Origin: Gammaproteobacteria bacterium | GTDB taxonomy: Bacteria; Pseudomonadota; Gammaproteobacteria; Enterobacterales; Neiellaceae | Length of the DNA stretch: 64,000 bases | NCBI GenBank assembly: GCA_017425245.1 | Contig: JAFOOX010000022.1 | Coordinates: forward strand, 62,001-126,000 | Direction of reading: 5' to 3' | Part shown: piece by piece, positions 11,833-30,734 of the stretch | Numbering within the stretch: the stretch's first letter is position 1 | Layout: each line of letters opens with the position of its first letter | Program-made: the position numbers and the translations under genes | The notes under the pieces: model-generated | Told to the model about the DNA's origin: nothing | Seen by the model: only the letters and a program-made list of their open reading frames with translations | Database searches by the model: none

Positions 11833-12366
11833 TCAGAAGCGCAGACTGACGCCAACCGCCACGTTGCTTTCACCGTAGTGAGGAAGGTTGCCGGTACTGA
11901 ACAGCGCTTGCAGGGCAACATCGTTGCGCAAGTTATAACTGGCACCCATGCCAACAGCCAGATCGGCGTCTGCCAGTGTAGGGCTGTTACCGTAATGGTG
12001 GAACCAAGCATTGGCCATGCTGCCATTTTCGATATTGAGCAGGTAGCCCCGGTCGTTGTCGTAAAGCTGGCCTACCAATTCCACCCGGTAGGCGCTGCTA
12101 CCGTGCGCTGACAGCACCGGGACAGTCATCGATTGATAAAAGTCAGAGGCGGGGAACCAAGTCTCGGCTATTGACGGGGCGACCACCAGATTGCTGCGCA
12201 ACCGCAGCAACTCGTCACTCACCACCTGATAGACAGCAACGGTCTGCTGACGCCAGCCGCCGCCGGTTTCATCATTCGCACGTGCGGCAACGGCTGGAAA
12301 TAGCAGCAGCACTGTCAGCAAAGACAGGCGGCGCAACGTATGGCCAGACCAGCACCCCGTGCCCAT
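11833..12366 (-). CDS. Exported beta-rich protein, probable small outer-membrane barrel
   Basis: About 177 residues with a signal peptide (LRRLSLLTVLLLFPAVAARA, cleavage after ARA) and alternating-residue beta strands to a C-terminal phenylalanine (GVSLRF), the usual barrel end signal. Segments such as YRVELVGQLYDNDRGYLL and DADLAVGMGASYNLRNDVAL look like barrel strands. I do not recognise a family. Start is uncertain: the ATG at 12366 adds a polar stretch before the signal core. Its role is unknown. Confidence 0.6.
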   Translation of the reverse strand: MGTGCWSGHTLRRLSLLTVLLLFPAVAARANDETGGGWRQQTVAVYQVVSDELLRLRSNLVVAPSIAETWFPASDFYQSMTVPVLSAHGSSAYRVELVGQLYDNDRGYLLNIENGSMANAWFHHYGNSPTLADADLAVGMGASYNLRNDVALQALFSTGNLPHYGESNVAVGVSLRF

Positions 12367-12666
12367 AGCGGCAACCTGTGTCTGTAACAGAAGGTGACAG
12401 CCATTGTATGTCCGACTGTCGCCCCAGTCCCGGTGATGTGCAATAAATTTGATCAGGTTAGTGCTTTTGCCGTTGATGAGTTTCTGAACAGGGCCGGCGA
12501 GGTACGACCAGCAAGGCTTGGGAAAAGGCTCACGTTCTGATCATCTATTCTCTGCTCAAATAGCTATCAAGTTCACAGCGCGGGTGCTCGGCATGACCCA
12601 TTGTTGGTGTGGAGTGGCGATGCGGACCAATGCTGACCACAATTGGCTTTGGACCGGTTGAAGCAA
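12367..12666. other. Intergenic region between divergent genes
   Basis: About 300 nt between the minus-strand exported protein and the plus-strand LacI-type kinase. It must carry both promoters, but I see no convincing -35/-10 pair, operator palindrome or terminator. No coding sequence with a plausible start is visible. Confidence 0.5.
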
Positions 12667-14979
12667 ATGGTGTGCGCGCGAGGTCGAAACTTGACCCTGG
12701 TGGATGCTGAACAGCAATCCCGGCATGGGGATGAACCACAACTATTGCGTCTACCGGTGGCGCTTGTAGTGCCTTCGCTCGTCTATCAGATTGAACAGTC
12801 TCTGCTCAGCGGGGCGCGGGCGGTGCTGGAGGCTGCCGGTTATCCGGTGGTGTCGGTGGTGGGCGGCTACCTGCCAGCAGCCGATGAGTGGCCGGATAAC
12901 CGCAACTGGATTTATGACTATGTTGCCGGGCAGCAGCTTTCAGGCGTCATCTATTACGGTGGTGGCGTCGGCTATCGTGCTGGTCTGGTTCCTACTCGGC
13001 AACTGGCCCGCCAGTTTGGCAACGTGCCCGTTATTAACCTGGGTAGTGAGCTGGATGGTACTGCCTCGGTGGTGGCTGACAATTTCAGCGGGATGAAGGC
13101 CCTTGTCACTCATTTGATCGTCGAACGGGGCTTCAAGCGTTTCGCGTTTGTCCACGGTCCCTTGTGTAACAGCGAGGCGCTTGAACGCTTCAGCGGTTTT
13201 CGTGCCGCCTTGGCCGAACATCAACTGATGGTTGATGAACGGCTGTTGCTGGCTGGCGATTTTACCGCCGATGGCGGGCGACGGGCGGTGCATCAGATGC
13301 TTCAGCAGCGCGGCCCCCTGCCTCAAGTGGTGGTCTGTGCCAACGATTTGAGCGCCACCGGCGTGGTTGCTGCACTGCAGGCCAATGGGTTGCAGATTCC
13401 CGATGAGATTGCGGTGGTGGGGTTTGATGATTTTGAATATGCGGTTGCGCTGGAACCACCGCTAACCACTGTTCATTACCCGGCTACCGACATGGGCGCG
13501 CTGGCGGCCCGCTTGCTCCTCCAGCAACTTGCAGGCGAAGCCTGTGCTCCTTACTCCCAAGTAATGGCGCGGCCGGTTATTCGGCGGAGCGCTGGTGATG
13601 AGCGCGGGGTGGAGGATGAGGATGCCTCGGTGCTTTATCGCAATCGCTGGAAACAGATTCAGGCGCGTGACCGCCACGCCTGCCGTTTGCGTTTCGATCG
13701 TGCCGTATTTCAGGCCGCAGATCTCAGTGAACTGTTCCGTCAGCATGCGTCGGTACTGGCGGAAGCCGGTTTTGCCGACCTCTATTTGTGTGCTTGGCCA
13801 ACCCTGGCCGAAGGGGGCGCGCTATGGGTACGCCATGCCGTCAGCGATGGTCAGCGACTGGCGTTGACCTCGGAGCAGGCACGCATCCTACCCGGCCAGC
13901 TGTTGCCGCCAGCGGTGGATATCGTTGCCACTAGTCGTCGCCGGCCGGAGCTGGTTTGGGTGGTGCACCCACTGGGCTTTGAGGATCAGCGTTTCGGTTA
14001 TCTCGTGGTCGCGGTCGACGAAGTGGTTGTCAGTTTTGCTGAATCCTTGGGTGTTCAGCTGTCAGAGGCGATCAATCGGCAACGTCTACAGGAGGACGCG
14101 ATAGCGCGGCGCCAGGAGCTGGAATGCTCACTGGATGCGCTCAAACAGGCTCACCTGCGTCTCGACAAAGCTGAGAAGATTGCGACGCTGGGTCGTTTGG
14201 TGGCGGGTATTGGCCACGAACTCAATACGCCGGTGGGGGCTGGCATTACCATGGCATCTTTCGTCATGGAAGAACTGGCCCAACTGCAGGAGGCGCTCGG
14301 TGCCGGACGTCTGTCACGGCCACGGCTGGAGCAGGCGCTGGAGCAGAACCGCCAGGCCGCCGACAGCATCTTCCGTTCGCTGGTGCGCTGCGCCAGCCTG
14401 ATCGAACTGTTTAAGTCGAGTAGTAGCCAGGGTGCGGGGCGCCAGGTGATCGACGTCTCGCTATGGGAAGTGGTACACGCTGCCTTTTACCGCTGCCGTG
14501 ACGAATTAGCCGTAGATTTGGCCTACGAGGTGGATTGCCCACAACAGCTTCGGCTGAAAACCGATGTTGACGCACTGACCTCGGTCCTCGTTCACCTGAT
14601 TGAGAACGCTGCCGCCCACGCCTATGCCGGTCAACCGAACGGACGGGTCAGGGTGGAGGTTCGTGATGATCCCATGACTCACCGACTGATGATTCGCTTT
14701 CGTGATTATGGTTGTGGCATGGATGGCGAACGGCTTGCACGTTTGTTCGAACCCTTCAACACCACCGATCGAGGTCAGGGACGGACGGGCCTTGGCCTTT
14801 ATCTCGTCTACAACCTAGTCAGCCTGCGTTTGCGTGGCATTGTCACAGTGCATAGCTCCATTGGTAAGGGCACGGTGTTTACCCTGGAGCTGCCTCTGCT
14901 AAATGATGAGGGTGAGGAACAGGATGACAATGTCATCAGCCCGATGTTCGCATCAAGGGTCGAACGGCGAGCCAACTGA
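12667..14979 (+). CDS. Soluble histidine kinase with LacI-type sugar-binding sensor domain
   Basis: About 770 residues with no membrane helix or signal peptide. Residues 20-310 form a LacI/PurR-type periplasmic-binding-protein fold without the helix-turn-helix: VALVVPSLVYQIEQSLLSGA at the N-terminus, VVCANDLSATGVVAALQANG and EIAVVGFDDFEYAVALEPPLTTV. A GAF-like region (340-475) follows, then a coiled coil, a dimerisation box with GRLVAGIGHELNTPVG (His near 516) and a HATPase with HLIENAAAHAYAG, DYGCGMDG and GRTGLGLYLVYNL. It should autophosphorylate in the cytoplasm in response to a small ligand. The response regulator is not adjacent. Start uncertain: ATG 12667 chosen; TTG 12643 is possible. 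Confidence 0.82.
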   Translation: MVCARGRNLTLVDAEQQSRHGDEPQLLRLPVALVVPSLVYQIEQSLLSGARAVLEAAGYPVVSVVGGYLPAADEWPDNRNWIYDYVAGQQLSGVIYYGGGVGYRAGLVPTRQLARQFGNVPVINLGSELDGTASVVADNFSGMKALVTHLIVERGFKRFAFVHGPLCNSEALERFSGFRAALAEHQLMVDERLLLAGDFTADGGRRAVHQMLQQRGPLPQVVVCANDLSATGVVAALQANGLQIPDEIAVVGFDDFEYAVALEPPLTTVHYPATDMGALAARLLLQQLAGEACAPYSQVMARPVIRRSAGDERGVEDEDASVLYRNRWKQIQARDRHACRLRFDRAVFQAADLSELFRQHASVLAEAGFADLYLCAWPTLAEGGALWVRHAVSDGQRLALTSEQARILPGQLLPPAVDIVATSRRRPELVWVVHPLGFEDQRFGYLVVAVDEVVVSFAESLGVQLSEAINRQRLQEDAIARRQELECSLDALKQAHLRLDKAEKIATLGRLVAGIGHELNTPVGAGITMASFVMEELAQLQEALGAGRLSRPRLEQALEQNRQAADSIFRSLVRCASLIELFKSSSSQGAGRQVIDVSLWEVVHAAFYRCRDELAVDLAYEVDCPQQLRLKTDVDALTSVLVHLIENAAAHAYAGQPNGRVRVEVRDDPMTHRLMIRFRDYGCGMDGERLARLFEPFNTTDRGQGRTGLGLYLVYNLVSLRLRGIVTVHSSIGKGTVFTLELPLLNDEGEEQDDNVISPMFASRVERRAN

Positions 14980-15046
14980 CCATCGCAGGCCGTTTGCTTG
15001 GTGCTAGCATCGTGACCCCCGACCGTTGCAGATCTGAGGAGTCATC

Positions 15047-15979
15047 ATGCGGGCTGGCATTATCGGCAGCAACTGGGGTCTGGTGCATCTGGTACCCTTG
15101 CGGAATGCAGGGGTGGATGTGGTGGCCCTCTGCGGTCAGGACGCTGCCAATACCGCCCGAGTGGCTGCGCGCGAAGGGATTGGCCGATGTCACACCAACG
15201 CCGCTGAGTTGCAGGATCTCGACCTGATTGTGATCGCCACTCCTGCCATCACTCACCCTCAGCTGCTAGAGCTATTTCCCCATCAATTCGTCATCTGTGA
15301 GAAGCCGCTGCTGGGCATTGGTCATCCACTGGCCCGCGCTGCCTCCTTACCGCGGCAGCGGGTGTGGGTCAACTATGCCTTTGCTTTTCTCGACTGCGCC
15401 CAGGCGGCTGCGGCGGCGCTGGCCCAGATCGGCCCGCTGCAGCGGGTTCGGGTCGAGTCTACGGTCAATATTCCGCTGACCTTCAGCTGGCCTCAGTGGT
15501 TTATGGAGGTCGCCAGCCACCCCCTGAGCTGGGTACTGCATCAGTTGGGACCGGCTTGGCCGCGCACCGTCCGGCCGTTGCCTCAAGGTCATCTGGTTGA
15601 GGCCTGGTGGCCGTCAGGCACGACGGGTGAGTTTGTCGTCGGTCATCAGCCACAAGCGGGTATTCACCATCGCCTGCATCTGGTGGGAGAGGGCGGCAGC
15701 ATTGAACTGCAGGGGCAGCTAATCTGGGGCGAGAACTGGCGCTATGGTCCGCTGCGCGTCAACGGCGAGGTGCTCGAACTGGCAAATGGCGGATCCGGTG
15801 ATCCTTGGGTTTTAGCCAACCATGAGGCGGTCACCGCCCTAGTGGCGGTCGCCCGTGGCCGCACCAGCCGTGATCAGGCATTGGCCAGCGGCTTGTTTGA
15901 TCTGGACAAGGCGCTGTGGGTAGAGCAGCTGGTTGGCCAGATGGCGGCAGTGCCACTGATGACTGAACACGGCCAGTGA
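15047..15979 (+). CDS. Gfo/Idh/MocA-like oxidoreductase
   Basis: A 310-residue protein with an N-terminal Rossmann fold (MRAGIIGSNWGLVHLVPLR, a GxxGxxG-like loop) and the family's DLIVIATPAITHPQ and FVICEKPLLG segments, the latter holding the conserved EKP lysine. The C-terminal half is the alpha/beta domain of Gfo/Idh proteins. Substrate is unknown; sugars and their nucleotide conjugates are usual. TGAGGAG lies ten bases before the ATG. It sits between two signalling genes and I see no pathway partner. Confidence 0.75.
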   Translation: MRAGIIGSNWGLVHLVPLRNAGVDVVALCGQDAANTARVAAREGIGRCHTNAAELQDLDLIVIATPAITHPQLLELFPHQFVICEKPLLGIGHPLARAASLPRQRVWVNYAFAFLDCAQAAAAALAQIGPLQRVRVESTVNIPLTFSWPQWFMEVASHPLSWVLHQLGPAWPRTVRPLPQGHLVEAWWPSGTTGEFVVGHQPQAGIHHRLHLVGEGGSIELQGQLIWGENWRYGPLRVNGEVLELANGGSGDPWVLANHEAVTALVAVARGRTSRDQALASGLFDLDKALWVEQLVGQMAAVPLMTEHGQ

Positions 15980-16086
15980 TCGTTGTCTCATTGCCGGCGG
16001 ACAGCAGTACAGGTTGTTGGAGAATACGCTGGCAACTGCCATGGTTACAGGGCTAAGTTGCTGAAACCAAGAGGTTAGCTTTGGCC

Positions 16087-17682
16087 ATGCTGTCATCCCG
16101 TTTCGGCCTGCGCGGTCAGTTGTTGACCGCTTTGGTACTGGCACTGACGGCTATCACCGCTCTGCTGCTGTTGATACTTGTTGGTCAGCAGGCGATCACC
16201 GTGGGGGGCCCGCTGGATGACCAACTCCAGCGTGATCGCGCCATGTTGGCGGCTCTCAGCCCGTCGCCGCTGTATGTGGTGGAGGCGGTCGGTCACGTTG
16301 AAGAACTGATGAACAGCGACAGTGCCGCCACCTTTGGTGAGGCCCTGATTGCCATCAAAGCAGTGCAATCGCGCTTTGAAGAAGCGCGTCAGCAATGGGC
16401 CGGCATGACCCTGTCGGCGGCGGCAACGCCCCTCTACAGCCGGGCCATGACCGAGGCCGATACCCTGTTCACCCTGATTGAACGGCAGCTGGTGCCCGCC
16501 CTGCGCGCTAACCAGCGAGAGCAGGCGCGGCAGCCCTATCTGCTGATTCGCGACGCCTTGGTCCGCCATCGGGCGGCGCTGAAGGAGTTGCAGCCGCTGT
16601 TGGCCGAAGAGCTTGGTGCCAGTCAGCAGCACGCCGCGCAACAGGTGGTTCATTTTACCTGGGTGGTCGTTGGGGTCGGGGTGTTGCTGGTGCTGATGAT
16701 CAGCGCCTTCATGCTTTGGTCGTGGCGCGATCTGCTGCGTCGCTTTGGCGCTGAAGCCGAGGTGTTGGTCGAGCGTTTGAGGTTCGGCGACATGGCCGGA
16801 CAACCAGCTGAGCTCAGGCCGGCACCAGCCGGTAGTGTGCTGGCTGAGATCGAGCTCCTGTTGCTGCGTGGCCGGGTGGCCGGGCAAGGTGCCGATCAGG
16901 ACCGCCAATTGCGTCAGCTGCTGCAGCATCACGATGGCTGCATCATGCTGGTCGATGCCAGCTTGCAGATTCTGCTGATTTCATCACGCTTGCAGGCTGG
17001 CTGGGCGGCACTCACGGCTGCCGACGATCAGCCGCTGTCGCTGCCGGCAGTGGGCAGCAATTTTGAGCAATGGTATCCAGCGGCCGATGCGCCAGCGCGG
17101 CTGAGCCGGGCGGCCGAGTACGGCTCGCGGGTACGGTTGACGCTGGGGACCGTGGATTACCTGCTGGCGCCGCGTCGCCTGGTAGATGAAGACGGACAAT
17201 TGCTCGGCCTTTGGCTGGAGTGGCTGGATGGCGGCGAGATTGCCCGCCAGGCTCGTGCCGCTCAGCGTCAACGCTTTAACAGCGTGCGCGCAATGGTGAT
17301 CGAGAGCCGGCCAGCGACGCGGACCCAGCAGGTCAAGCTGCTGTCGGCCATTGGCATGGTCGAGGTTGATGAGGTCTCTCAGGGCGAAGAGGTAGAGCGG
17401 CTGCTGGCGCAACACCCCTATGACCTTATCATCTGCGATTGGGAGATGACCGGCATGACCGCTCTGACTCTGCTCACCCGGCTGCGTGCTAACCCAGCCA
17501 CGGCTGGCGTGCCCTTCGTCATGTGCACCTCGGTGGCCAGTCGTGACAACATCAAGGCGGCGGTGGCTGCAGGCGCTACCGATTACATCGTCAAGCCGTT
17601 CGAAGCGCGAGTGTTTCAGGAGAAGCTGGCTCGCTTGCTGCTGCGTCAGCAGGCGGCAGATAAGCCTCAGTCGTCGCTGTAA
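16087..17682 (+). CDS. Membrane sensor with chemoreceptor-like input and C-terminal receiver domain
   Basis: About 531 residues. An N-terminal helix (LLTALVLALTAITALLLLIL), a periplasmic helical domain (residues 30-185), a second helix (VVVGVGVLLVLMISAFML), a PAS-like segment (280-390) and a receiver (400-525). The periplasmic domain resembles that of the MCP at 24111 (shared PLYVVEAVGHVEELMNS versus [17 protein letters not shown]), but no MCP signalling domain follows. The receiver keeps the phospho-acceptor (LIICDWEMTGM, Asp near 451), Thr and the KPFE lysine, but the usual acidic pair is replaced by VIES. GAGG at 16071 fits TTG 16081 (6 nt) or ATG 16087 (12 nt). Confidence 0.75.
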   Translation: MLSSRFGLRGQLLTALVLALTAITALLLLILVGQQAITVGGPLDDQLQRDRAMLAALSPSPLYVVEAVGHVEELMNSDSAATFGEALIAIKAVQSRFEEARQQWAGMTLSAAATPLYSRAMTEADTLFTLIERQLVPALRANQREQARQPYLLIRDALVRHRAALKELQPLLAEELGASQQHAAQQVVHFTWVVVGVGVLLVLMISAFMLWSWRDLLRRFGAEAEVLVERLRFGDMAGQPAELRPAPAGSVLAEIELLLLRGRVAGQGADQDRQLRQLLQHHDGCIMLVDASLQILLISSRLQAGWAALTAADDQPLSLPAVGSNFEQWYPAADAPARLSRAAEYGSRVRLTLGTVDYLLAPRRLVDEDGQLLGLWLEWLDGGEIARQARAAQRQRFNSVRAMVIESRPATRTQQVKLLSAIGMVEVDEVSQGEEVERLLAQHPYDLIICDWEMTGMTALTLLTRLRANPATAGVPFVMCTSVASRDNIKAAVAAGATDYIVKPFEARVFQEKLARLLLRQQAADKPQSSL

Positions 17683-18115
17683 CGGGTGCAGCGGTTGCGG
17701 CCACTGCACGCTAAAGGGCGCTGTCAGCGCGTCTTAGAATCGCTGCAGGCTCTGATCATCGCGCGCCAGCAACGCTGTCGCCCCACAGCTGGTTAACCCC
17801 GCTGTTTAAGCCGCGTTACGCATAACCCCGCTATCACACCACCTCTGGCTTCCCTTTGTGTTGGATCCTGCGCTTTCGCTGATTTGTGACCGCTGCCGTT
17901 GTTTTACCGACACATCCATCAGCGCTGTCGTCGAACGGTTAGTTGCTGGAAATGCTCGAGATTTACGCGTGGGACCTGGGCCACGGATTGTGAAAATTGT
18001 GGACTTGGCAGGCACCGCCAATTGGCACTTTTACTGCTGTTACCTAAGGTTAGGGCAATAGCGGTGAATTATGCGCATTGCACTCAGGACATGATGGAGC
18101 AGGGGTGGACAAGGC
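17683..18115. other. Intergenic region upstream of the chemosensory operon
   Basis: About 430 nt without a credible gene. It includes the inverted repeat GGCGCTGTCAGCGC near 17718 with no U-run, and the candidate sigma-54 promoter listed separately. It probably carries the promoter of the chemosensory operon. Confidence 0.5.
18023..18038 (+). promoter_or_regulatory. Candidate sigma-54 promoter
   Basis: TGGCACTTTTACTGCT fits the -24/-12 consensus TGGCAC-N5-TTGC with one mismatch (CTGC for TTGC) and correct GG-GC spacing. It lies about 78 nt before the first gene of the chemosensory operon. Found by eye; one such match could arise by chance. Confidence 0.35.
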
Positions 18116-19261
18116 ATGAGCAGGGACCAGGTGATGGCATGGGCTAAATTGACATTGCCTTGGTTGGTAACGGCGGTGTTGGCGGTCGGTGGTTTGTCAC
18201 CTTGGCTAGCGGCGCTGGTTGGTTTGCTGGCGTTGGGATTAGTGCTGTGGCTGATTGATCGCCAGCCACAGCAAGTGGCGCAACAGACCCCTATTGAGCC
18301 GATGGTGGCAGTACCGGACTGGCAACGATTGGGCAGTAATCTGGACCACGAAGTAGCGGAACTACAGCAGCATGTGGCTCGGGTGCAAACGTTGCTGGCC
18401 GAAGCGATTGAGCAGCTGACAGCCAGCTTCAATGGCCTGAGCGATCAGATCGAACGCCAACACAAACTGGCTGCGTCGCTGATCAAACGCTACAGCGAAG
18501 CGGGGCTGGAGGGTGATGACATCAACTTCGGCACCTTTGTCGAAACCACTCAGCAGACCATGGGGCTGTTTGTCGACGCGACCGTCGACACCAGCCATAC
18601 CTCAATGCAGCTGGTGGATCGCATGGATACCATCAGCAAGAAAATTAGCGAGATCCTGATTTCCACCGAGGATATGGAAGATATCGCCAAGCAGACCAAT
18701 CTGCTGGCCTTGAATGCCGCCATTGAAGCCGCTCGTGCCGGCGAGGCCGGCCGCGGTTTCGCCGTAGTTGCCGACGAAGTGCGCTCGCTGTCGATGCGTG
18801 CCAGTGAGTTTTCTAACCAGATCCGCGATCACGTTGGCGGTGTTCACCATGAACTGAAGCAGGCCGAACAGTCGGTGAGTCAGCTGGCGGCCAAGGATAT
18901 GAGTTTTGCCCTGACCTCGAAAAAGCAGGTAACCAACATGCTCGATCAGCTGGATCGCATGAACGGTCGCACGGTGGGTGTGGTACAGGAGCTGGACGGG
19001 ATCGCCCGTGAAGTGAACTGCCGGGTTGGTCAGGCTATTACCGCCTTGCAGTTTCAGGATATGACCAGTCAGTTGCTGGGCCAGCTCAGCCAGCATCACC
19101 AGCGATTACAGCATGTGTCTCAGTTGCTGCAACAACTGGGGGCCGCACCCGCTGCTGATTGGGTCGGGCTGGTTGGCCGGGCCAGTGACCATCTGGCCGA
19201 GGGGGTGGCGACACCCGTCGCTCAACGCACCTTCGCCGCTGGCGATGTGGAACTTTTTTAA
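18116..19261 (+). CDS. Short methyl-accepting chemotaxis protein without ligand-binding domain
   Basis: A 381-residue receptor: two tightly spaced N-terminal hydrophobic segments ([20 protein letters not shown] and [15 protein letters not shown], residues 12-50), no periplasmic domain, a coiled coil, then the MCP signalling tip [20 protein letters not shown] followed by [14 protein letters not shown]. The C-terminus ends GDVELF, almost the same as CheD of this cluster (GDVDLF). It probably senses membrane or cytoplasmic state, or acts in the array via other receptors. First gene of the cluster, 12 nt before the STAS gene. Confidence 0.88.
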
Positions 19262-19272
19262 GGGACTGAGCC

Positions 19273-19569
19273 ATGAATACCAGTAGCAATAATGTGGTCA
19301 CCGTACGTCCGGCCCCCCGCTTCGATTTCAATTCCTACCGCGAGTTTCGCGATCTGATTGACAAGGCATTGAGTGGTGCCGGGGTTAGCTGCTTGGTGAT
19401 TGACATGGGCGAGGTCCAGTACATGGATTCGGCGGCGCTCGGCATCCTGCTCTATGTCCGTGACCGGGCCAAAGCGACCGGCCGCGAGGTCGAACTGGCC
19501 AATTGTCGTGGAGCGGCCTTGGAAGTTCTTGAAATTGCGAATTTTCCGCGCATCTTTACGATGAGATAA
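19273..19569 (+). CDS. STAS-domain anti-anti-sigma factor (HsbA-like)
   Basis: A 98-residue single STAS domain of the SpoIIAA/RsbV/HsbA type. The phosphorylatable serine is in QYMDSAALGILL (Ser53). In partner-switching systems the unphosphorylated STAS protein binds the anti-sigma HATPase protein, and a PP2C phosphatase reactivates it. The next gene encodes both a PP2C and a HATPase domain, so this is its natural partner. RBS GGGACTGAG precedes the ATG by a few bases. Confidence 0.88.
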   Translation: MNTSSNNVVTVRPAPRFDFNSYREFRDLIDKALSGAGVSCLVIDMGEVQYMDSAALGILLYVRDRAKATGREVELANCRGAALEVLEIANFPRIFTMR

Positions 19570-19573
19570 CGCT

Positions 19574-21304
19574 ATGGCTGCGCTGCGCATCATGGTCGTA
19601 GATGACTGTCCAATGCTGGCTGTGGCGATCGCCAAGCTGGTGCGCGACTTTGGTCATGAGGCAGAGGCGTTTACCGACGGTTCGGGCGCAGTAGCTGCGT
19701 ATGGCGGCAGCAACTGGCATATGGTGATCGTCGATCAAAGGATGCCTGGTATGGATGGCTTGGCGGTGATGCGAGCACTGCGCCAGCACCAGCAACAGAG
19801 TGGCTGGCGGCCTATTCTGATGGTTTCGGCGTTTAGCAGTGCAGAAGAGCAGGTCGCCGCACTGCACGCCGGTTGCGATGATTTTCTGCCCAAGCCGGTC
19901 AGTGCTGCGGTTCTTGCCGCCAAGATCGCTGCTTTCGCCCGCATTTTTGACCTGCAGGAGCAACTCGCCAGCCAGAACCGAACATTGCTGCAGTTTCAGG
20001 CCGACCGCGAAGAAGAAGCGCGGGTTGCCGAGCAGTTGATGAAACGGTTGGTGCTGCGGGCCGAACTGGATCGCAAGGTATTGCAGCATTTCGTGCGGGC
20101 CACCGCGCAGATGTCGGGCGATCTGATTCTGGCGACCAGCAGCTCTACCGGCGATCGCTATGTGATGCTGGCCGATGCTACTGGTCACGGCTTGCCAGCG
20201 GCCCTGACCCAGATCCCGCTGTCGCAGACCTTCTACGAGATGGCGGCTCGTGGCTTCAGTCCGGTATCGATCGTGGCCGAAATGAATCGTCACCACCGCC
20301 AGTACGCCCCGGTTTACCGCTCGGTGGCCGCCTTTGTGGCCGTTCACCGGGTGCGAGAGCAGACACTGGAGGTTTGGAATGGCGGTATGCCGGATGCCTT
20401 GCTGGTAGAGAGCAACGGTCAGGTGGTGCGGCGTTTTAAATCGCAGAATCTGCCGCTGGGGATCGATAGCGACATGAGCTATTACCGCGACAGTGAAGTG
20501 GTGGCTGTGGTCAATGGCCACCATCTGGTGCTCTGCTCCGATGGCGTGTTTGAAGCCGAAAACAGCCTGGGCGATTGGTTTGGTGGCCACGGCGTTGAAG
20601 ATGCCCTGCTTGCCGCCGGCACTGCAGGCGGCTTCGGCCGGGCGGTAGAGGAGGCCCTCGATCGCCATTTGGCCGGGCACCGGGCTCATGACGATCTCTC
20701 TTGCATGATCCTGGATTGTTCCCCTTGTGCCAGCGATATGGCCCTGCCTAGGGCCAATGGGGATGAGCAGGTGACGACCGGTAACCATCAATGGCAGCTG
20801 GAGATTGCGCTCGGTGGGGCGCGGTTGCGCCAGTTCGATCTGGTGCCCTCGATGATCGCTTGGCTGCGCGAGCTGGGGTTGGCGGATGGCGATGTGGCAC
20901 GGTTGTCACTGGTGATGGGTGAACTGGTCACCAACGCCATCGATCACGGTCTGCTCGGCCTTGACTCCGGTCTCAAGAACGGGCCCGACGGTTGGGAGCG
21001 CTATGCCACCCTGCGCGAACAGCGGCTGGATCAGCTGGCCAACGGTTCCCTGACCATCAAGGTCCGCCAGAGCGGGCCGGGCGAACTCTTACAACTGCAG
21101 GTGCAGGATAGTGGCGATGGTTTTCACTGGCAGGGCCGCCAAGGCGCCCAAGCCCAGGACTATCACGGGCGTGGCCTGCAGCTGGTGTGCGCCTTGAGCA
21201 ACCGGCTGGAGTATCGCGGCGCCGGTAATGACGTTTTTGTTGAAATCGCTTCGGCTTCCGCCGCTCACGGCGCAGCCGGGCCCCGAGGTGGGGAGCAGCA
21301 ATGA
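19574..21304 (+). CDS. Response regulator with PP2C phosphatase and HATPase anti-sigma domain (HsbR-like)
   Basis: A 576-residue three-domain protein. Receiver (1-125) with the acidic pair VVDD, phospho-acceptor Asp54 in VIVDQRMPG and lysine in LPKPV; a coiled linker; PP2C/SpoIIE phosphatase (190-390) with VMLADATGHGLPAALTQ and LVLCSDGVFEAEN metal-binding Asp residues; and a C-terminal RsbW-like HATPase (420-570) with MGELVTNAIDHG and DSGDGFHWQ. The architecture is that of Pseudomonas HsbR, which controls the HsbA STAS protein as both kinase and phosphatase. Phosphorylation by the CheA downstream would link the array to this switch (inference). It overlaps cheY by four bases. Confidence 0.88.
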   Translation: MAALRIMVVDDCPMLAVAIAKLVRDFGHEAEAFTDGSGAVAAYGGSNWHMVIVDQRMPGMDGLAVMRALRQHQQQSGWRPILMVSAFSSAEEQVAALHAGCDDFLPKPVSAAVLAAKIAAFARIFDLQEQLASQNRTLLQFQADREEEARVAEQLMKRLVLRAELDRKVLQHFVRATAQMSGDLILATSSSTGDRYVMLADATGHGLPAALTQIPLSQTFYEMAARGFSPVSIVAEMNRHHRQYAPVYRSVAAFVAVHRVREQTLEVWNGGMPDALLVESNGQVVRRFKSQNLPLGIDSDMSYYRDSEVVAVVNGHHLVLCSDGVFEAENSLGDWFGGHGVEDALLAAGTAGGFGRAVEEALDRHLAGHRAHDDLSCMILDCSPCASDMALPRANGDEQVTTGNHQWQLEIALGGARLRQFDLVPSMIAWLRELGLADGDVARLSLVMGELVTNAIDHGLLGLDSGLKNGPDGWERYATLREQRLDQLANGSLTIKVRQSGPGELLQLQVQDSGDGFHWQGRQGAQAQDYHGRGLQLVCALSNRLEYRGAGNDVFVEIASASAAHGAAGPRGGEQQ

Positions 21305-21666
21305 GCAAATCGATCCTGATTGTTGATGATTCGGCCTCTATTCGGCAGATGCTGGGTTTTACCCTCAAGTCCGCCGGTTTTGATGTCGACGAGGCCCCTA
21401 GCGGCCAGGACGCGGTGACTAAGTCCCAACGCAAGAACTACAACCTGATCTTTACCGACCAGAATATGCCGGGCATGGATGGCCTGACCCTGATCAAGAC
21501 GCTCAGGGGCACTGCCACTTATCGCAGCGTGCCGATCTTGATGCTGACCACTGAATCCAGCGATGCCATGAAACAGGCAGGGCGAATGGCCGGTGCCACC
21601 GGCTGGCTGGTCAAGCCGTTTGATCCGGTGAAACTGCTGGAAGTGGTGCGCAAAGTTCTGCCCTGA
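21301..21666 (+). CDS. cheY: Chemotaxis response regulator CheY
   Basis: A 121-residue stand-alone receiver. Acidic residues Asp9-Asp10 (LIVDDSASI), phospho-acceptor Asp53 (IFTDQNMPGMDG), Thr84 (LMLTTESS) and Lys105 (LVKPFDP). No output domain. Overlaps the preceding gene's stop by four bases and precedes cheA by 22 nt. It could drive the motor or another output of this array; a flagellar role is not proven from sequence. Confidence 0.92.
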   Translation: MSKSILIVDDSASIRQMLGFTLKSAGFDVDEAPSGQDAVTKSQRKNYNLIFTDQNMPGMDGLTLIKTLRGTATYRSVPILMLTTESSDAMKQAGRMAGATGWLVKPFDPVKLLEVVRKVLP

Positions 21667-21688
21667 ACGCCTGAGCCCAGGGGGCAGC

Positions 21689-23608
21689 ATGAACTTCGAT
21701 CTACAACAGTTTGCTTCAGTCTATTTTGAAGAGACTGACGAACATCTCGCCGACATGGAGGCATTGCTCCTCGGCCTCGAACCGCATGCGCCCGATCTAG
21801 AAGCGCTCAATGGCATCTTTCGCGCCGCTCACTCGATCAAGGGGGCCAGCGGCATGTTCAACTTCAGCGATGTAGTGGCCGTTACCCATGTGCTGGAGAA
21901 CCTGCTGGATCGGTTGCGCAGTGGTCGCATGCAGCTGCAGCCGGATCAGATTGACCTGTTTCTGGAGGCCCGCGATCTTATTGCCGAACTGGTCGCCGCT
22001 CACAAGGCTGGGGCCGAGCAGGGGCCCGATACCCGGCTGATGGTCAGCCGCCTCAACGACTGTCTCAATAGTTCTGCAGCGCCGCTGGCCGATCCGGGTG
22101 GGGCCTGGGGGCTGTTTGCGCCGCTGGATGACGCGGTAACGGCAGCCTTAAATGAGATCGCTGACGACAGCTTTGGCTTTTTTGACGATGCGCCCGGAGC
22201 ACCAGTTGCCGCCGAAACCGCATACGGCCTGTTCGAGGATGCCCCCGGTCTGGCACCGCCAGCCGATGATAGCTTCGGTTTGTTTGAGGATGCGCCGGGG
22301 CTACCGGCGGCAGCGGCTGAGGCCACCGTGGCGCAGGCCTTGCCAGCGTTAGCCAGCTCGGCCCCCGCCATCGAACCGTCCGCCAGGGTGCCGGCGACGG
22401 CCAGCAAAGGAAGCGCAGCGGCTGAAGGTGAGGCCAATACCATCCGCGTGCCGGTGCGCAAGATAGATTCGCTGATCAACATGGTCGGTGAGTTGGTGAT
22501 CACCCAGGCGATGCTGGCCCAGGAGATCGGCGGCCACAACGACGAGGTGCAGGAGCGGCTGCAGCAGATTCTCGCCCAGCTCGATCACAACACCCGCGAT
22601 CTGCAGGAAACGGTGATGTCGATCCGCATGCTGCCGATCAGCTTTGTTTTCTCACGCTTTCCGCGGCTGGTGCGCGATGTTGGCACCAAGCTTGGCAAAC
22701 AGCTCGATTTGGTGCTGTCAGGCGAAACCACTGAACTCGACAAGAGCATGATCGAGCGGCTGATTGACCCCCTCACCCATATTGTCCGCAACAGCATCGA
22801 CCATGGCATCGAGACCCCTGACGAGCGTCGCGCCAGCGGCAAGAGCGAGCGTGGTCGCATCAGTCTGTCAGCCTTCCATCAAGGGGGGCGGGTGGTGGTG
22901 GAGATCAGCGATGACGGCCGTGGTCTCAACCGAGAACGCATTCTGGCCAAGGCGCGCGAGCAGGGGATGGCGGTGCATGACGCCATGGCCGACAGCGAGG
23001 TGTGGCAGCTGATCTTCATGCCCGGATTCTCCACTGCCGAGCAGGTGACCGACCTGTCGGGGCGTGGGGTGGGCATGGATGTGGTGCGTCGCAACGTCCA
23101 GTCGGTGGGCGGGCGTATCGATATTCAGTCGGTAGCAGGTGCAGGCACCCGCATCAGTCTGCGCCTGCCGCTGACCCTGGCCATAGTCGACGGCATGATC
23201 GTGCAGGTGGAGCAGACTAACTACGTGATACCGCTGGCCCACATTGTCGAATCACTGCAGCCGTCAGCGGCGGATGTGCGCGGCATCGGCGGCGATGGCC
23301 GTGTCGTCAGGGTGCGCGGCGACTACCTGCCGCTGTTCACCATGCATGGGCTGATGGGCCACCCGCCTGCCAAGGATGGCAACCATGAAGCCTTGATCAT
23401 CATTCTTGAGGCCGACGGCACCCGCTTTGGTCTGTTGGTTGACCGTCTGCTTGGTCAGCAGCAGGTGGTGATCAAGAGCCTTGAGCACAACTTTCGCCGG
23501 CTGGATGGTATTGCCGGCGCCACCATCATGGGCGACGGCAGCGTCGCCCTAATTGTCGATGTTGAACAGCTGCCCGCAATGGCGGCGACCATGGGAAACA
23601 CAACATGA
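21689..23608 (+). CDS. cheA: Chemotaxis histidine kinase CheA
   Basis: A 639-residue CheA. P1 HPt domain with the phosphorylated His48 (FRAAHSIKGASGMFNF); a linker (140-250); dimerisation P3 (VRKIDSLINMVGELVI); HATPase P4 with HIVRNSIDHGIETP, DDGRGLNRE and GRGVGMDVV; and a C-terminal CheW-like P5. A recognisable P2 CheY-binding domain is absent. In its place are repeats of a short motif: WGLFAPL near 140, DSFGFFDDAPG near 160, AYGLFEDAPG near 178 and DSFGLFEDAPG near 194. These may be docking motifs. Overlaps cheW by four bases. Confidence 0.95.
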   Translation: MNFDLQQFASVYFEETDEHLADMEALLLGLEPHAPDLEALNGIFRAAHSIKGASGMFNFSDVVAVTHVLENLLDRLRSGRMQLQPDQIDLFLEARDLIAELVAAHKAGAEQGPDTRLMVSRLNDCLNSSAAPLADPGGAWGLFAPLDDAVTAALNEIADDSFGFFDDAPGAPVAAETAYGLFEDAPGLAPPADDSFGLFEDAPGLPAAAAEATVAQALPALASSAPAIEPSARVPATASKGSAAAEGEANTIRVPVRKIDSLINMVGELVITQAMLAQEIGGHNDEVQERLQQILAQLDHNTRDLQETVMSIRMLPISFVFSRFPRLVRDVGTKLGKQLDLVLSGETTELDKSMIERLIDPLTHIVRNSIDHGIETPDERRASGKSERGRISLSAFHQGGRVVVEISDDGRGLNRERILAKAREQGMAVHDAMADSEVWQLIFMPGFSTAEQVTDLSGRGVGMDVVRRNVQSVGGRIDIQSVAGAGTRISLRLPLTLAIVDGMIVQVEQTNYVIPLAHIVESLQPSAADVRGIGGDGRVVRVRGDYLPLFTMHGLMGHPPAKDGNHEALIIILEADGTRFGLLVDRLLGQQQVVIKSLEHNFRRLDGIAGATIMGDGSVALIVDVEQLPAMAATMGNTT

Positions 23609-24099
23609 GCAGCAACAGCGCCGTTGTCGACGCCGTCCAGGGGCAGCACGAAGTGTTGACCTTCACCCTGGGGGCCGAGGAGTACGCCATCGATATCCTC
23701 AGTGTGCAGGAGATCCGCGGTTATGACCGGGTCACCGCCATCGCCAATGCTCCACCCTTTATCAAAGGGGTGATCAATCTGCGTGGCGACATCGTGCCGA
23801 TCATCGATCTGCGCATCAAATTCAACCTCGGTCATGTCAGCTATGACCAGTTCACCGTGGTCATCATCCTCAATGTCGGCCAGCGGGTGGTGGGGGTAGT
23901 GGTCGATGCGGTGTCTGATGTGGTGTCACTGGCGGTGGCCGATATCAAGCCGCCGCCGCAACTGAGCAGTGCTTTGGATCTCGCCTACCTCAAGGGGGTG
24001 GCGACCTGTGGCGAGCGCATGCTGATTCTGGTCGATATTGAACGTTTGATTACCAGTGATGAGATGGGTCTGGTCGATAACCTGGCGGCAAACCGGTAA
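23605..24099 (+). CDS. cheW: Chemotaxis coupling protein CheW
   Basis: A 164-residue CheW with the family segments [37 protein letters not shown] and [15 protein letters not shown]. It bridges receptors and CheA in the array. The ATG overlaps the cheA stop and the next MCP gene starts about 11 nt later, so it is in the middle of one operon. Confidence 0.95.
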
Positions 24100-24110
24100 G
24101 GGGTATGAAC

Positions 24111-26501
24111 ATGGCAATCAGCAAGGGGCTGACCTTCCGTCAGCAATTATTGGCCATCGGTAGCGTCGCTGTAGTCGCGCTATTGGTGGTGTTCGGCATC
24201 GCCGTGGTTCAGCACCGTCAGACCGGCATCGGTGGCACGGTTTATCGGCAGCTGGCCATGGACAGTGAACTGACCGCAGACATCTTGCCGCCGCCACTGT
24301 TTGTGGTCGAGACCATGCTTCATGTCGAGGAGCTGGCCAACCCGGACGGTCAGGCGATGTTCGACAACGCGCTCAACGAAGTACGTGAGCATCAGCTTGA
24401 GTATCAGCAGCGGGTGGCGCGCTGGGCCGATGTTGCCTTGCCGCCAGATGTACGCCGCACCCTTGATCAGGGCCACGCGACCGTGGAACAACTCTATCGG
24501 TTGGTCAGTGAGCAGTTGATTCCGGCAATCAAGGCTGGTGATGCCACGGCGGCCGATGAGGCTCACCATCAGGCACGCATGCTGTTTGAGCGCCATCGTG
24601 GCGAAATTGCGACGCTGGTCGAGCAGGTGAATATCTCGGTCAAGGAGCATGAAGCTACCGCCCAAGCGACAGCGTCGTTTTACCTCATGCTGCTGATCGT
24701 CGTAGGATTGATCGCCGTCGCCCTGACGGCGTTGCTGGCCTGGCGTATCAGTCAGCGGGTGACGGGGGCGCTGGGTGCTGAGCCGGCCGAGCTGGCCTCT
24801 ATTGCCCAAGCAGTAGCCAAGGGTGATCTGTCCAGGCAGCTGCCAGCAACTATCGCCGAGGGTAGTGTATTGGCCTCTATGGCGGCCATGCTGAGCAAGC
24901 TGCGCGAAGGTCAGGCCCAGGCGATCACCAATCTGCGCATTCTGGGGGCGCTGGATAACACCAGCACCAATCTGATGATTGCCGATGCCGACCGCACCAT
25001 CATCTACATGAATAAATCGGTGGAGAAGATGCTGCGCGGGGTCGAGGCCGACATGCGCAAGGCCCTGCCGCAGTTCTCGGTCGACAAAATTGTCGGCACC
25101 AATATGGACAGCTTCCATCGCAATCCTGCCCATCAGGCCAATCTACTGGCCAATCTTCAGCAGCAGTATGTGTCGCAGATTACGGTGGCCGGCAATACCT
25201 TCCGCCTAACTGCCAGCCCGGTGTTCGCGCCTGATGGCAAGCGTTTAGGCACTGTTGTCGAGTGGCTGGATCGCACCGCCGAGGTCAAGGTGGAAGCGGA
25301 AGTAGCCGACGTGGTCAACCGCGCTGGTGCGGGTGATTTTACCCAGCGGCTGACGCTCGCCGGTAAAGAGGGGTTCTTCAAGACCCTGGCCGAGGGTTTG
25401 AATAGCTTGATGGAAACTACCGCTAGCGGCTTGAGCGACATTGCCACGGTGCTGGGGGCGCTGGCCAAGGGGGACCTGACGGCGCGTATTACCAAGGACT
25501 ACCAAGGCACCTTTGGTGAGCTCAAGCAGTACGCCAACGATACCACTGAAGCCTTGACCGGCATGATGGCCCAAATCCGTGAAGCGGCAGATACCATCCA
25601 CACCGCTGCCAGCGAGATCGCCGCCGGCAACGCCGATCTGTCGTCGCGTACCGAGCAGCAGGCCTCCAGCCTGGAGGAGACCGCCTCGAGCATGGAGGAG
25701 CTGACCAGCACCGTGCGTCAGAATGCCGATAACGCCCGTCAGGCCTCAGGTTTGGCCAATAACGCCTCGCAGGTGGCCAGCTCCGGTGGTGCCGTGGTCA
25801 GCGACGTGGTGGTGACCATGGCCTCGATCAATGCCTCGGCGCGCAAGATCTCCGACATCATCAGCGTCATTGATGGCATCGCCTTCCAGACCAATATCCT
25901 GGCCTTGAACGCCGCCGTCGAAGCCGCCCGAGCCGGTGAGCAGGGGCGTGGCTTTGCGGTGGTGGCCGGCGAAGTAAGGACGCTCGCCCAGCGCTCGGCG
26001 GCCGCAGCCAAAGAGATCAAGGCGCTGATCTCCGATTCGGTGGAGAAGGTGGACGCCGGTAACGCGCTGGTGTCCAAAGCTGGCAGCACCATGAACGAGA
26101 TTGTGGTGGCGATCAAACGGGTCACCGACATCATGGCCGAGATTGCGGCGGCCTCGGCCGAGCAGAGCACCGGCATTGAGGAGGTCAACGCCGCCGTCAC
26201 CCAGATGGATGAGATGACCCAGCAAAACGCCGCACTGGTGGAAGAAGCTGCCGCCTCGGCCGAGTCGCTGCAGAGTCAGGCCAACCTGTTGGCCCAGTCG
26301 GTAGCCGCCTTCCGTTTCGACCACAGCGGTGGTGGTTCACCCCTACTGGCCGCTCCTGTGGTGCACCCCGGGGGGCACGGCGGCCGGCCGCTGGCCGCCC
26401 CCAAACCTGTGACCAAAGGGCCAGCCAAAGGCAATCTGCCGGCCAAGCCGGTGCGCAAGCCGGCGGCTCGCCCAGCGGAAGATGAGTGGGAGGAGTTCTG
26501 A
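24111..26501 (+). CDS. Methyl-accepting chemotaxis protein with PAS domain and CheR-tether pentapeptide
   Basis: About 796 residues. TM1 ([20 protein letters not shown]), a periplasmic helical domain (30-185), TM2 ([20 protein letters not shown]), a HAMP, a PAS domain (about 275-390, [20 protein letters not shown]), another HAMP-like region and the MCP signalling domain with tip [20 protein letters not shown] near 590. The C-terminus is a Pro/Ala/Lys linker ending EWEEF, matching the xWxxF pentapeptide that tethers CheR and CheB. ATG 24111 is seven bases from AAGGGG; ATG 24105 is too close to it. The cheR gene overlaps its end. Confidence 0.92.
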
Positions 26502-27352
26502 GCAGGGGCGGCGCAGTCAGCGCCGAGGACCGCGAGTTTGCTTACAGCGCGGCTGATTTCGAGCAGGTGCGCAGCCTGCTCTATCAGCGCGCCGGGATCA
26601 GCCTGGCAGCGAGCAAGGCGTCGATGGTCTACAGCCGACTGGCGCGTCGGCTGCGCGCCCTGCGCCTGACCAGCTTTAGGCAGTATTTCGCCTATCTGCA
26701 TGAGCATGAGGATGAGTTGGAGCAGTTCACCAATGCGCTGACCACCAACCTCACCTCGTTCTTTCGCGAGGAACATCATTTCCCGATGCTGGCCGCCCAC
26801 CTGCAGCGCCTTTACCGCGAACAGCGGCGGCCGTTGCGCATCTGGTGTACCGCCTCAAGCACTGGCGAGGAGCCCTATTCGCTGGCGATGACTGCGGTTG
26901 AAGCCTTTGATTGCAGCACACCGCCGGTGACCATTCTGGCATCGGATATCGATACCAAAGTGCTGGCGCACGCCGCTGCCGGTATTTACGAGCTGGAGCG
27001 GCTGAGCGGGCTGGATGAGCAGCGCAAGCGCCGCTTTTTCCTGCGTGGCCGGGGCAGCCATGAGGGTCAGGCACGGGTCAAGGATGAGTTGCGCCAGCTG
27101 CTGCAGTTCCGCCAGATCAACCTGCTGGCGCCTGACTGGCCGGTGAAGGGCGGGCTGGATGCGATCTTCTGCCGCAACGTCATGATCTACTTTGACCGGC
27201 CAACCCAGCTGCAGTTGCTGGGGCGGCTGATGCCGCTGTTGCAGCCGGAAGGGCTGTTTTTCGCCGGCCACTCCGAGAGCTTTGGCCACGCCGGCCATCT
27301 GGTGAAACTGATCGGTCGCACCGTCTATCGCCATGCCGGGGTGGCGCCATGA
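26486..27352 (+). CDS. cheR: Chemoreceptor methyltransferase CheR
   Basis: About 288 residues with the CheR N-domain ([18 protein letters not shown]), SAM-binding [31 protein letters not shown] and [15 protein letters not shown]. It methylates receptor glutamates for adaptation. The start is uncertain: GTG 26486 lies within the end of the MCP gene, whereas the strong GGAGGAG at 26489-26495 would favour a non-ATG start a few codons later. No ATG is available in the family-like region. Followed by cheD with an ATGA overlap. Confidence 0.93.
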
Positions 27353-27948
27353 GTCATCAGGAGCCGGTCGCCGCCAACACCTACTTTGATCGCCATCTGA
27401 ACATTGAGGCGGTCAAGATCCTGCCCGGCGAATACTTCGCCACCACTCGCGATCTGGTGGTGGTGACGGTACTTGGCTCCTGCGTGTCGGTCTGCCTGCG
27501 TGATCGTCGCAGCGGCATCGGCGGCATGAACCACTTTATGCTGCCCGGTAATGACGAGCATTCGCCGGTGTCGATGTCGGCCCGCTATGGCGTGTACGCC
27601 ATGGAGATGCTGACCAACCAGCTGCTCAAGCTGGGGGCTGATCGTCGTCAGTTTGAGGCCAAGATCTTTGGCGGTGCCAATGTCTTGTCCGGCTTGACCA
27701 TGGCCAATGTCGGACCGCGCAACGCCCAGTTTGTCACCGACTATCTGGTCACCGAGCGCATTCCCATCGTGGCCAGCAGCCTGCTCGATATCTATCCACG
27801 CAAGGTTTACTTCTTTCCGGCCAGTGGCAGGGTGCTGCTGAAAACCCTCAAGCAGCTGCACAACAGTACCCTGCTCGAACGCGAAGCCGAATACAGCCTG
27901 CGCATCCGCCAGCAGCAGGGCGGTGGCGGCGACGTCGATCTGTTTTAA
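27349..27948 (+). CDS. cheD: Chemoreceptor glutamine deamidase CheD
   Basis: A 199-residue CheD. Catalytic Cys and His are in [15 protein letters not shown] and [11 protein letters not shown], and the Thr/Ser region in [18 protein letters not shown]. It deamidates receptor glutamines. The C-terminal tail ends GGGDVDLF, which matches the end of the MCP at 18116. Overlaps cheR (ATGA) and precedes cheB by eight bases. Confidence 0.94.
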
Positions 27949-27956
27949 GGATTGTG

Positions 27957-29009
27957 ATGGCTATCAAGGTGTTGATTGTTGATGACTCGGCGCTGATCCG
28001 GGAGCTGCTCAAGCAGATCTTTGCCAGTGATCGTGAGTTTGTAGTGGTCGGCGTAGCGCCGGATGCCTACGTCGCCCGCGAGCTGATCATTGCCGAAGCG
28101 CCCGATGTCATCACTCTGGATGTTGAGATGCCACGCATGGATGGCCTCACCTTTCTGGAAAAGCTGATGAAGGCCCGGCCGACGCCGGTAGTGATGGTGT
28201 CGTCGCTGACGGCTGAAGGCGCCGATGCCACCTTGCGGGCATTGGAGCTGGGGGCCGTGGACTTTGTCACCAAGCCCGCCATCGGTATTCGTGACGGTAT
28301 GCTCGCCTACGCCGAGGAGCTGAAAGAGAAGGTGCGGGCGGCGGCCAGCTCCCATGTTCGGCGGCTCAAGCCCCACGGTTCTCCCGTGACCGCCAGCAAA
28401 CCTTATCCGCTGCTGGGGACAGAAAAGCTGATTGCCATTGGCGCCTCTACCGGCGGCACTGAGGCGATTAAAGAAGTACTGCTGGGGTTGCCCGCCAATA
28501 GCCCGGCCGTGGTGATCACCCAGCATATGCCGGCCGGCTTTACCCGCTCCTATGCGGAGCGCCTTAACCGCCTGACCCTGCTGACGGTCGCCGAAGCGCA
28601 GGATGGTCAGCGACTGTTGCCCGGCCACGCCTATATTGCGCCGGGTGACTATCACTTCGAGATCACCCGCTCAGGTGCAGATTACGTGGCCCGGCTGCAT
28701 CAGCAGGAGCCGGTCAACCGTCATCGGCCGGCGGTCGATCTGCTGTTTGAGTCGGTCGCCCAATGGGCCGGTGCTAATGCGGTGGCGGCGCTATTGACCG
28801 GTATGGGTAAGGATGGGGCCGTCGGCCTGAAACAGATCCGTGATGCCGGCGGCTACACCATCGCCCAGGATGAAGCCAGCTGTGTGGTGTTCGGCATGCC
28901 GCGGGAGGCGATCGCGATTGGTGGGGCGATAGCGACAGTGCCGCTGGAAGAGATCGCCGCAAACTTGCTGCACGAGCTGAAAAGCCGAGGGGCCGGTAAC
29001 CGCGTGTAG
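27957..29009 (+). CDS. cheB: Chemotaxis response regulator methylesterase CheB
   Basis: A 350-residue CheB. N-terminal receiver ([11 protein letters not shown]; phospho-acceptor Asp in [17 protein letters not shown]) joined to the methylesterase with the catalytic triad Ser ([11 protein letters not shown]), His ([10 protein letters not shown]) and Asp ([11 protein letters not shown]). It removes receptor methyl groups when phosphorylated by CheA. ATG 27957 follows AAGGA by five bases; GTG 27954 is too close to it. Last gene of the tightly packed che operon. Confidence 0.94.
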
Positions 29010-29153
29010 TTGTTACAGAACTTGCTTGATCGCGACCACAGCGCTGAGCAAATGCCCAGTGGTGAGCTGTGGCTTTGCTACTGTTTGATTGGAACTGAGG
29101 GCTAGTTATACGGGTGATGAGCGCTCCAGCCATCAGCCGGGCAGGGACAGGGC

Positions 29154-30731: not shown

Positions 30732-30734
30732 AAA

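Follow-up and report, generated by a model that had tools for sequence, protein, structure and literature searches.

The gene at 16087..17682 on the forward strand of the 64,000-nt window (the whole stretch of DNA analyzed here) encodes a chemoreceptor-type sensor that carries a receiver in place of the MCP end, a real and unusual combination that has so far been seen in one genus. The original prediction, that a chemoreceptor-like sensor here ends in a receiver and not in an MCP domain, was borne out by Pfam. The receiver (residues 403-513, E 1.6e-19) was the sole above-cutoff match in the 531-aa product, P0001, and no MCPsignal (PF00015), HisKA, HATPase, or CheW domain was found at E 0.1; Pfam does find the MCP domain in P0009, the Aer2-like MCP encoded downstream. 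Nor is P0001 a hybrid histidine kinase, as Pfam gave no HisKA/Hpt plus HATPase in the chain. The frame is uninterrupted from ATG 16087, or from the alternative start TTG 16081, through 17682. The source bacterium is a relative of Corallincola, and the sole ortholog found is encoded in a Corallincola MAG (G001; Psychromonadaceae) on contig JAGOCY010000100.1, and is 81% identical over residues 1-334. That contig stops at residue 334, inside the PAS domain and before the receiver, and the receiver half of P0001 was seen in one genome only.

From the N-terminus, P0001 consists of TM1, a periplasmic four-helix domain, TM2, a HAMP-like segment, an Aer2-type PAS domain, a linker, and the CheY-like receiver. 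The hydropathy scan gave two transmembrane peaks, corresponding to TM1 (about residues 12-34, 16120..16188; a helix at 7-34 in the AlphaFold2 model) and TM2 (about residues 188-213, 16648..16725). The sequence between them, LSPSPLYVVEA...HVEEL (about residues 35-187, 16189..16647), was assigned by AlphaFold2, VIA-align, and alignment to P0009 as a four-helix ligand-binding-type domain, and P0001 thus has the two-TM periplasmic ligand-binding-type domain of MCPs. After TM2, a segment placed by alignment only (about residues 214-262, 16726..16872) matches the HAMP-like segment of P0009 with a three-residue gap, yet gives no Pfam HAMP match. It is followed by the PAS domain (about residues 271-385, 16897..17241; alignment and Foldseek) and by a linker at 17242..17283, which is the fusion region: BLAST paralogy to P0009 stops at residue 381, and strand 1 of the receiver starts at about residue 401. 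The receiver itself (about residues 400-521, 17284..17649) is supported by Pfam, by a PDB phmmer match to CheY (E 3.2e-18), and by AlphaFold2. All of these features lie on the forward strand.

A full-length AlphaFold2 model built on a six-row alignment was of low confidence except in the periplasmic domain (mean pLDDT 64.8, pTM 0.35, residues 389-427 below 50), and domain contacts were therefore not interpreted. In this model, the periplasmic part forms a helical bundle (block pLDDT 74-92 over residues 61-170 and 65-68 at residues 41-60), and PAS-like strands and helices follow TM2 at lower confidence. The top VIA-align matches of the periplasmic domain were Vc1313-LBD (Z 15.3, rmsd 3.0, 156 residues) and the PcaY_PP LBD (Z 14.9, rmsd 2.2, 136 residues), and the third structural match was a histidine-kinase sensor domain (4k0d, Z 15.1); for a helical bundle, a Z of about 15 is only slightly higher than the value of about 13 where VIA-align cautions that a match may reflect no more than a common arrangement. 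In a Foldseek search with the P0001 model, CheY structures ranked first, and the Aer2 PAS structure 4hi4 ranked eighth at E 2.8e-5. Modeled alongside eight other receivers, residues 389-531 reached a pLDDT of 90.2 with the alternating strands and helices of a receiver.

By BLAST, alignment, and tree, the input module closest to that of P0001 is that of P0009 (24105..26501, forward strand). Residues 2-381 align to P0009 at 26% identity (BLAST E 6e-23), and nothing in P0001 corresponds to the MCP part of P0009. The periplasmic domain had been predicted to be a paralog of that of P0009 on the basis of a common HVEEL motif, a claim that holds (26%, E 6e-23) and in fact understates the relationship, since paralogy runs beyond the periplasmic domain through TM2, the HAMP-like segment, and the Aer2-type PAS to residue ~381-390, and so spans the whole input module. 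HVEEL is common to P0001, its ortholog, and P0009; the three further MCPs in the alignment lack it. A tree built from six sensor-region sequences placed P0001 and its ortholog with P0009, apart from the MCP of the related genome G044 and two other MCPs (ultrafast bootstrap 91), and in a BLAST comparison P0001 matched P0009 at E 3e-23 and the G044 MCP at no better than 2e-5. These data suggest, rather than prove, a duplication in or near the lineage of P0001 followed by replacement of the output, as the sensor sequences compared share little identity (26% for P0001 and P0009, 20% for P0001 and G044, and 24% for P0009 and G044). In P0009, a two-TM periplasmic module stands before the PAS domain; its counterparts in the genomes G018 and G011 instead match the P0009 PAS more than once, from which it seems that the input end of this Aer2-like MCP is exchanged often.

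The PAS domain of P0009 matches that of Pseudomonas aeruginosa Aer2 (3vol) at E 6.6e-35, and keeps both a Trp near its end and the stretch FHRNPAHQ, the His of which we take to be the heme-coordinating His of Aer2. In Aer2 proteins, a conserved His coordinates heme and a Trp stabilizes oxygen, according to the available text of PMC9855816. The homology of the P0001 PAS to that of Aer2 was established through paralogy with P0009 and the Foldseek match to 4hi4; a direct Pfam scan and a PDB phmmer search with the P0001 PAS gave no believable match. In an alignment that split one receiver row and was used for the PAS domain alone (A2), the P0001 stretch opposite FHRNPAHQ reads WY--PAADAP, and that of the ortholog WY--GAAD. 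The Trp is kept (W379), while the His of FH[KR]NPAHQ is replaced by Tyr in both P0001 (Y330) and its ortholog. Lacking the presumed heme His, the P0001 PAS is unlikely to bind heme in the manner of Aer2.

To place the active site, the P0001 receiver was aligned with 30 others of the source genome, plus one each from G780 and G003. The source genome is spread over 74 contigs and rated 89% complete, and its aligned receivers, a subset of those it encodes, were taken from places matching P0001, two further loci, and the window. The acidic pair of CheY, D12-D13, corresponds to E406-S407 (17302..17307), and the phospho-acceptor D57 to D451 (17437..17439). Ser407 is the only non-acidic residue at the D13 place among the 33 receivers; Glu at the first place is ordinary, as 9 other aligned receivers have E-D. 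D451, W452, T481, Y500, and K503, the equivalents of CheY D57, W58, T87, Y106, and K109, are all kept. Judged as a PF00072 receiver, P0001 therefore has the fold, the phospho-acceptor Asp, the Thr/Ser, and the Lys, with the second acidic metal-site residue missing. The degenerate acidic pocket of the original prediction is thus confined to S407: E406 is unremarkable, and D451, T481, and K503 are intact. In CheY chemistry, a Ser in place of Asp as the second metal ligand should weaken metal binding, and hence phosphoryl transfer. Within the source genome, the nearest relative of this receiver is a CheY-like protein encoded beside a PilZ-like gene (40% identity, support 0.87); identity to the CheY of the che cluster in the window is 29%, and the two do not group together. 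At the locus concerned (L004:9480-10494, contig C26), a PilZ-like gene, named by eye, is followed by the single-domain CheY-like gene closest to the P0001 receiver.

Upstream of P0001, on the same strand, lie the genes for P0002 (12643..14979), which combines a LacI-type ligand domain with HisKA and HATPase domains, and P0003 (15047..15979), an oxidoreductase of the Gfo/Idh/MocA type, both assigned by Pfam. P0002 has no receiver or DNA-binding domain match by Pfam and no transmembrane peak in the hydropathy scan. The gaps between P0002, P0003, and P0001 are 67 and 107 nt, and this order of kinase, Gfo/Idh gene, and P0001 is kept in both the source genome and G001. Downstream, 433 nt separate P0001 from the McpA-like gene that begins the che cluster and, given the much shorter gaps upstream, P0001 lies outside the che operon proper. 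No Rfam match was found within 12000-31000, and promoter and terminator scans did no better than chance level. Homologs of the LacI/PurR-type kinase P0002 were found at E 1e-60 in 5 of 59 relatives, the source genome included. In the stretches read around those of G004, G039, and G015, no receiver gene directly adjoins the kinase gene, so the pairing of P0002 with P0001 is not general; a receiver-like gene is found some 3 kb off in G004, and in G039 and G015 the neighbor matches a GGDEF part.

Since P0001 couples a receptor input to a receiver and contains no enzymatic domain, its action must consist in taking up phosphate or in binding. Our preferred explanation, put forward tentatively, is that P0001 may be a ligand-gated, membrane-tethered receiver that is weakly phosphorylated and holds a local histidine kinase in check by docking on it. 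Slow phosphorylation combined with control by binding is preferred because one metal ligand is lost while the Asp, Thr, and Lys are kept. In such a scheme, a duplicated receptor gene would have had its output swapped for a receiver. Ligand binding in the periplasm, and perhaps also at the PAS domain, would move the TM2-HAMP-PAS unit, and this movement would expose, pair, or hide the receiver, which would then dock on a nearby histidine kinase, at its phosphorylated domain. With Ser replacing the second acidic metal ligand, the receiver would take phosphate weakly or slowly, and would act mainly by docking and restraint instead of as a fast phosphate sink. The kept D451, T481, and K503 argue that phosphorylation still matters, and speak against an emphasis on docking. 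That P0001 is a transmembrane receptor controlling a histidine kinase from the receiver side, with an outside ligand gating a CheY-like domain whose weakened metal site goes with restraint of the kinase, is conceivable, if doubtful.

Candidate partners are the orphan LacI-domain kinase P0002, two genes upstream, and the CheA of the che cluster, P0007, which starts at 21689. The gene order kept in two species slightly favors P0002, and the absence of a receiver from P0002 is consistent with the preferred explanation. For CheA, the link comes down to proximity and paralogy, since the cluster lacks P0001 in relatives and the synteny in G001 is with the orphan kinase and the Gfo/Idh gene. Given the kinship with a PilZ-linked receiver, a different partner is possible. 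The flagellar CheA of contig C17 (named by eye) is a further candidate, and the partner may also be none of these kinases.

That same kinship enters into a different account, in which P0001 would be a phosphorylation-independent adaptor whose receiver, on ligand binding, brings a partner to the membrane (the flagellar switch, a chemoreceptor array, or a PilZ/c-di-GMP protein). The uniqueness of S407 among the 33 receivers, the position of the nearest relative beside a PilZ-like gene, and the kept equivalents of CheY W58 and Y106 would all fit, while the three other catalytic residues are intact, which we would not expect had phosphorylation been abandoned; we regard this account as possible and on balance unlikely.

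The che1/F7-type cluster next to P0001 (18116..29009, forward strand) encodes, in order, McpA-like, CrsA-like, and CrsR-like proteins, CheY, CheA, CheW, the Aer2-like MCP, CheR, CheD, and CheB, with the names CrsA, CheR, CheD, and CheB given by eye and by match to the Shewanella che1 locus. As far as the available text of PMC9855816 describes it, that locus has the same gene content (two MCPs, CrsA, CrsR, CheY, CheA, CheW, CheR, CheD, and CheB), and CrsR/CrsA control RpoS in Shewanella (available parts of PMC9855816 and PMC6482189). Alongside this cluster, P0001 could in principle act on the F7-type CheA P0007 as a membrane-bound competitor or phosphate sink, drawing phosphate from it and so limiting how far CheY, CrsR, and CheB are phosphorylated, with control by a stimulus of the same kind as the Aer2-like MCP senses. 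Its sensor is paralogous to the cluster MCP, its gene adjoins the cluster, its phospho-acceptor Asp, Thr, and Lys are kept, and CheY-like domains borne by CheA are phosphate sinks in some species (available text of PMC10782961). Against this stand the 433-nt gap, the closer relationship of the receiver to the PilZ-linked CheY-like protein than to the cluster CheY, and the distribution of the gene: in all three relatives read (G044, G018, and G011), the same ten-gene cluster is present without P0001 beside it, and none of these genomes contains a P0001 match at E 1e-25 anywhere. P0001 is therefore an addition beside the cluster and not a conserved part of it. The check proposed with the original prediction, co-occurrence with the che cluster in relatives, thus speaks, to the extent that it could be run, against the suggested role as a phosphate sink or as a sensor recruiting CheA-type kinases. 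A homolog of P0009 was not found in G001 at E 1e-80, in a MAG that is 60% complete. As S407 should also hamper phosphoryl transfer, we consider a sink rather unlikely.

The distribution of P0001 is narrow. At E 1e-25, matches were found in 2 of 99 relatives (the source genome and G001), at 1e-22 in 1 of 369 genomes of the class (the source genome), and at 1e-20 in 2 of 398 genomes of the phylum, the second of which (G780) gave a receiver-only match to a soluble-looking protein without a sensor. A genome-contig search returned 2 loci, the G001 contig (L007) and a receiver-only match at 24%, and none of 42 plasmid records covers 80% of P0001. In these searches, scoring extended to the best 3 candidates per genome for class and phylum, 14 for the 99 relatives, and 4 for the order profile, at which depth a weak relative could be missed. 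An ortholog was absent from the five other family genomes searched; the best match in each was a receiver within a frame of 526-539 aa, similar in length to P0001, and all five were rejected, as in these proteins the receiver comes first, followed by a second receiver and an ATPase-like end (by eye), with no N-terminal sensor.

The genomic search for further sensor-receiver fusions that was suggested with the original prediction found none beyond P0001 and its cut-off ortholog among the matches listed. For 394 genomes of the order, searched at E 1e-20 with a 383-position profile that excludes the receiver, 10 of the matches listed (a count by eye) span the sensor from the beginning: P0001, G001 (cut off), P0009, G044, and six more. 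As candidate fusions the others were discarded. P0009 has an MCP domain, the G044 protein aligns to P0009 over its full length, and the frames of the six further matches all match the P0009 MCP domain (G031 was found by the profile only). A sensor match in G166 has, by eye, an MCP domain at its end, and the frame of one in G214 stops within HAMP-like repeats. A chemoreceptor-type sensor ending in a receiver was not described in the literature matches listed, which comprise titles and abstract openings, with most subscription journals outside coverage.

Restriction to one genus in these searches, one lost metal ligand, and the lost PAS His might together be taken to mean that P0001 is a functionless, decaying by-product of duplication. 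Between P0001 and G001, dN/dS is 0.106 over 334 codons (residues 1-334) and 0.083 for the periplasmic part; in the same genome pair, the kinase P0002 gives 0.042 and the Gfo/Idh gene P0003 gives 0.108, with all ratios being rough since dS between the two species, at 1.18, exceeds 1. The sensor part of P0001 is, on these sequence comparisons, under purifying selection, by which decay of the sensor half is already disfavored; the receiver, for its part, is full length, has an open frame, and folds at a pLDDT of 90 in AlphaFold2. Decay is thus improbable. Less probable still is a chimeric assembly artifact, in which an MCP fragment and a receiver gene would have been wrongly joined. Although the genome is fragmented (74 contigs) and the fusion point was seen in no second genome, a single reading frame stays open across linker and receiver, the ortholog corroborates the gene as far as residue 334, within the PAS domain, and no genome site is closer to the sensor half than P0009 at 26%, so that no missing other half is seen.

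The preferred explanation, of a gated receiver that restrains a kinase, can be set against several known systems. P0001 shares the TM/periplasmic module and HAMP-like segment with P0009, and the PAS fold with Aer2-type chemoreceptors such as P. aeruginosa McpB/Aer2 and Vibrio cholerae Aer2. Unlike these, it lacks the MCP signaling domain, has Tyr for the PAS His, and has no C-terminal pentapeptide: P0001 ends in PQSSL and P0009 in DEWEEF, and the McpB pentapeptide is given as GWEEF in the available part of PMC7698151. VieB of V. cholerae is, like P0001, a receiver protein without a DNA-binding output, and is described in the accessible text of PMC4352251 as hardly phosphorylated, binding its kinase and inhibiting it noncompetitively. 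In that text, VieB consists of an N-terminal receiver and a TPR domain with no TM sensor described, whereas P0001 has a TM sensor. CheY-like domains also tune CheA (available text of PMC10782961), and those fused to CheA resemble P0001 in being extra CheY-like domains in a chemosensory context, but the receiver of P0001 is carried by a receptor-like sensor and not by a kinase. In CheV, a CheW-receiver fusion (as covered by the available part of PMC12691637), a receiver is likewise joined to a chemosensory protein; P0001 differs in having no CheW domain by Pfam and in being membrane bound. Finally, archaeal REC-PAS-PAS-HAMP-MCPsignal proteins (PMC5847659, in the part available) resemble P0001 in uniting receiver, PAS, and chemoreceptor elements within a single chain, but there the MCP domain is kept and the receiver sits at the other end, while in P0001 the receiver replaces the MCP domain.

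If the preferred explanation is correct, stimulus control would sit on the receiver instead of the kinase, by way of an output-domain swap in a duplicated chemoreceptor, and the usual order of sensor, kinase, and receiver would be run with the sensor attached to the receiver. This would provide a natural wiring of an outside signal to the inhibition of a two-component or chemosensory pathway. Mechanism aside, P0001 presents a clear exchanged output domain beside a conserved chemosensory cluster, the Shewanella counterpart of which is tied to RpoS control.

Several other features of this region were observed. The CheA P0007 has no Pfam P2 match, and its linker (22106-22288, residues 140-200) carries four [WYF]G[LF]F repeats. 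The CheA proteins of the G044, G018, and G011 clusters have four, four, and three of these, and the flagellar CheA of the source genome has none; the repeats may be short docking motifs that replace P2. In all four clusters read, a GD[VI][DE][LF]F motif occurs at or near the C-terminus of the McpA-like protein and of CheD (in the window, at 19241-19258 in P0004 and 27928-27945 in P0011), and is perhaps a common docking tail. Beyond the cluster, on the reverse strand, 31688-37573 encodes a 1961-aa protein with, by eye, many PAS repeats, a histidine kinase, two receivers, and an Hpt-like end, adjoined by a receiver-GGDEF protein at 30735-31691.
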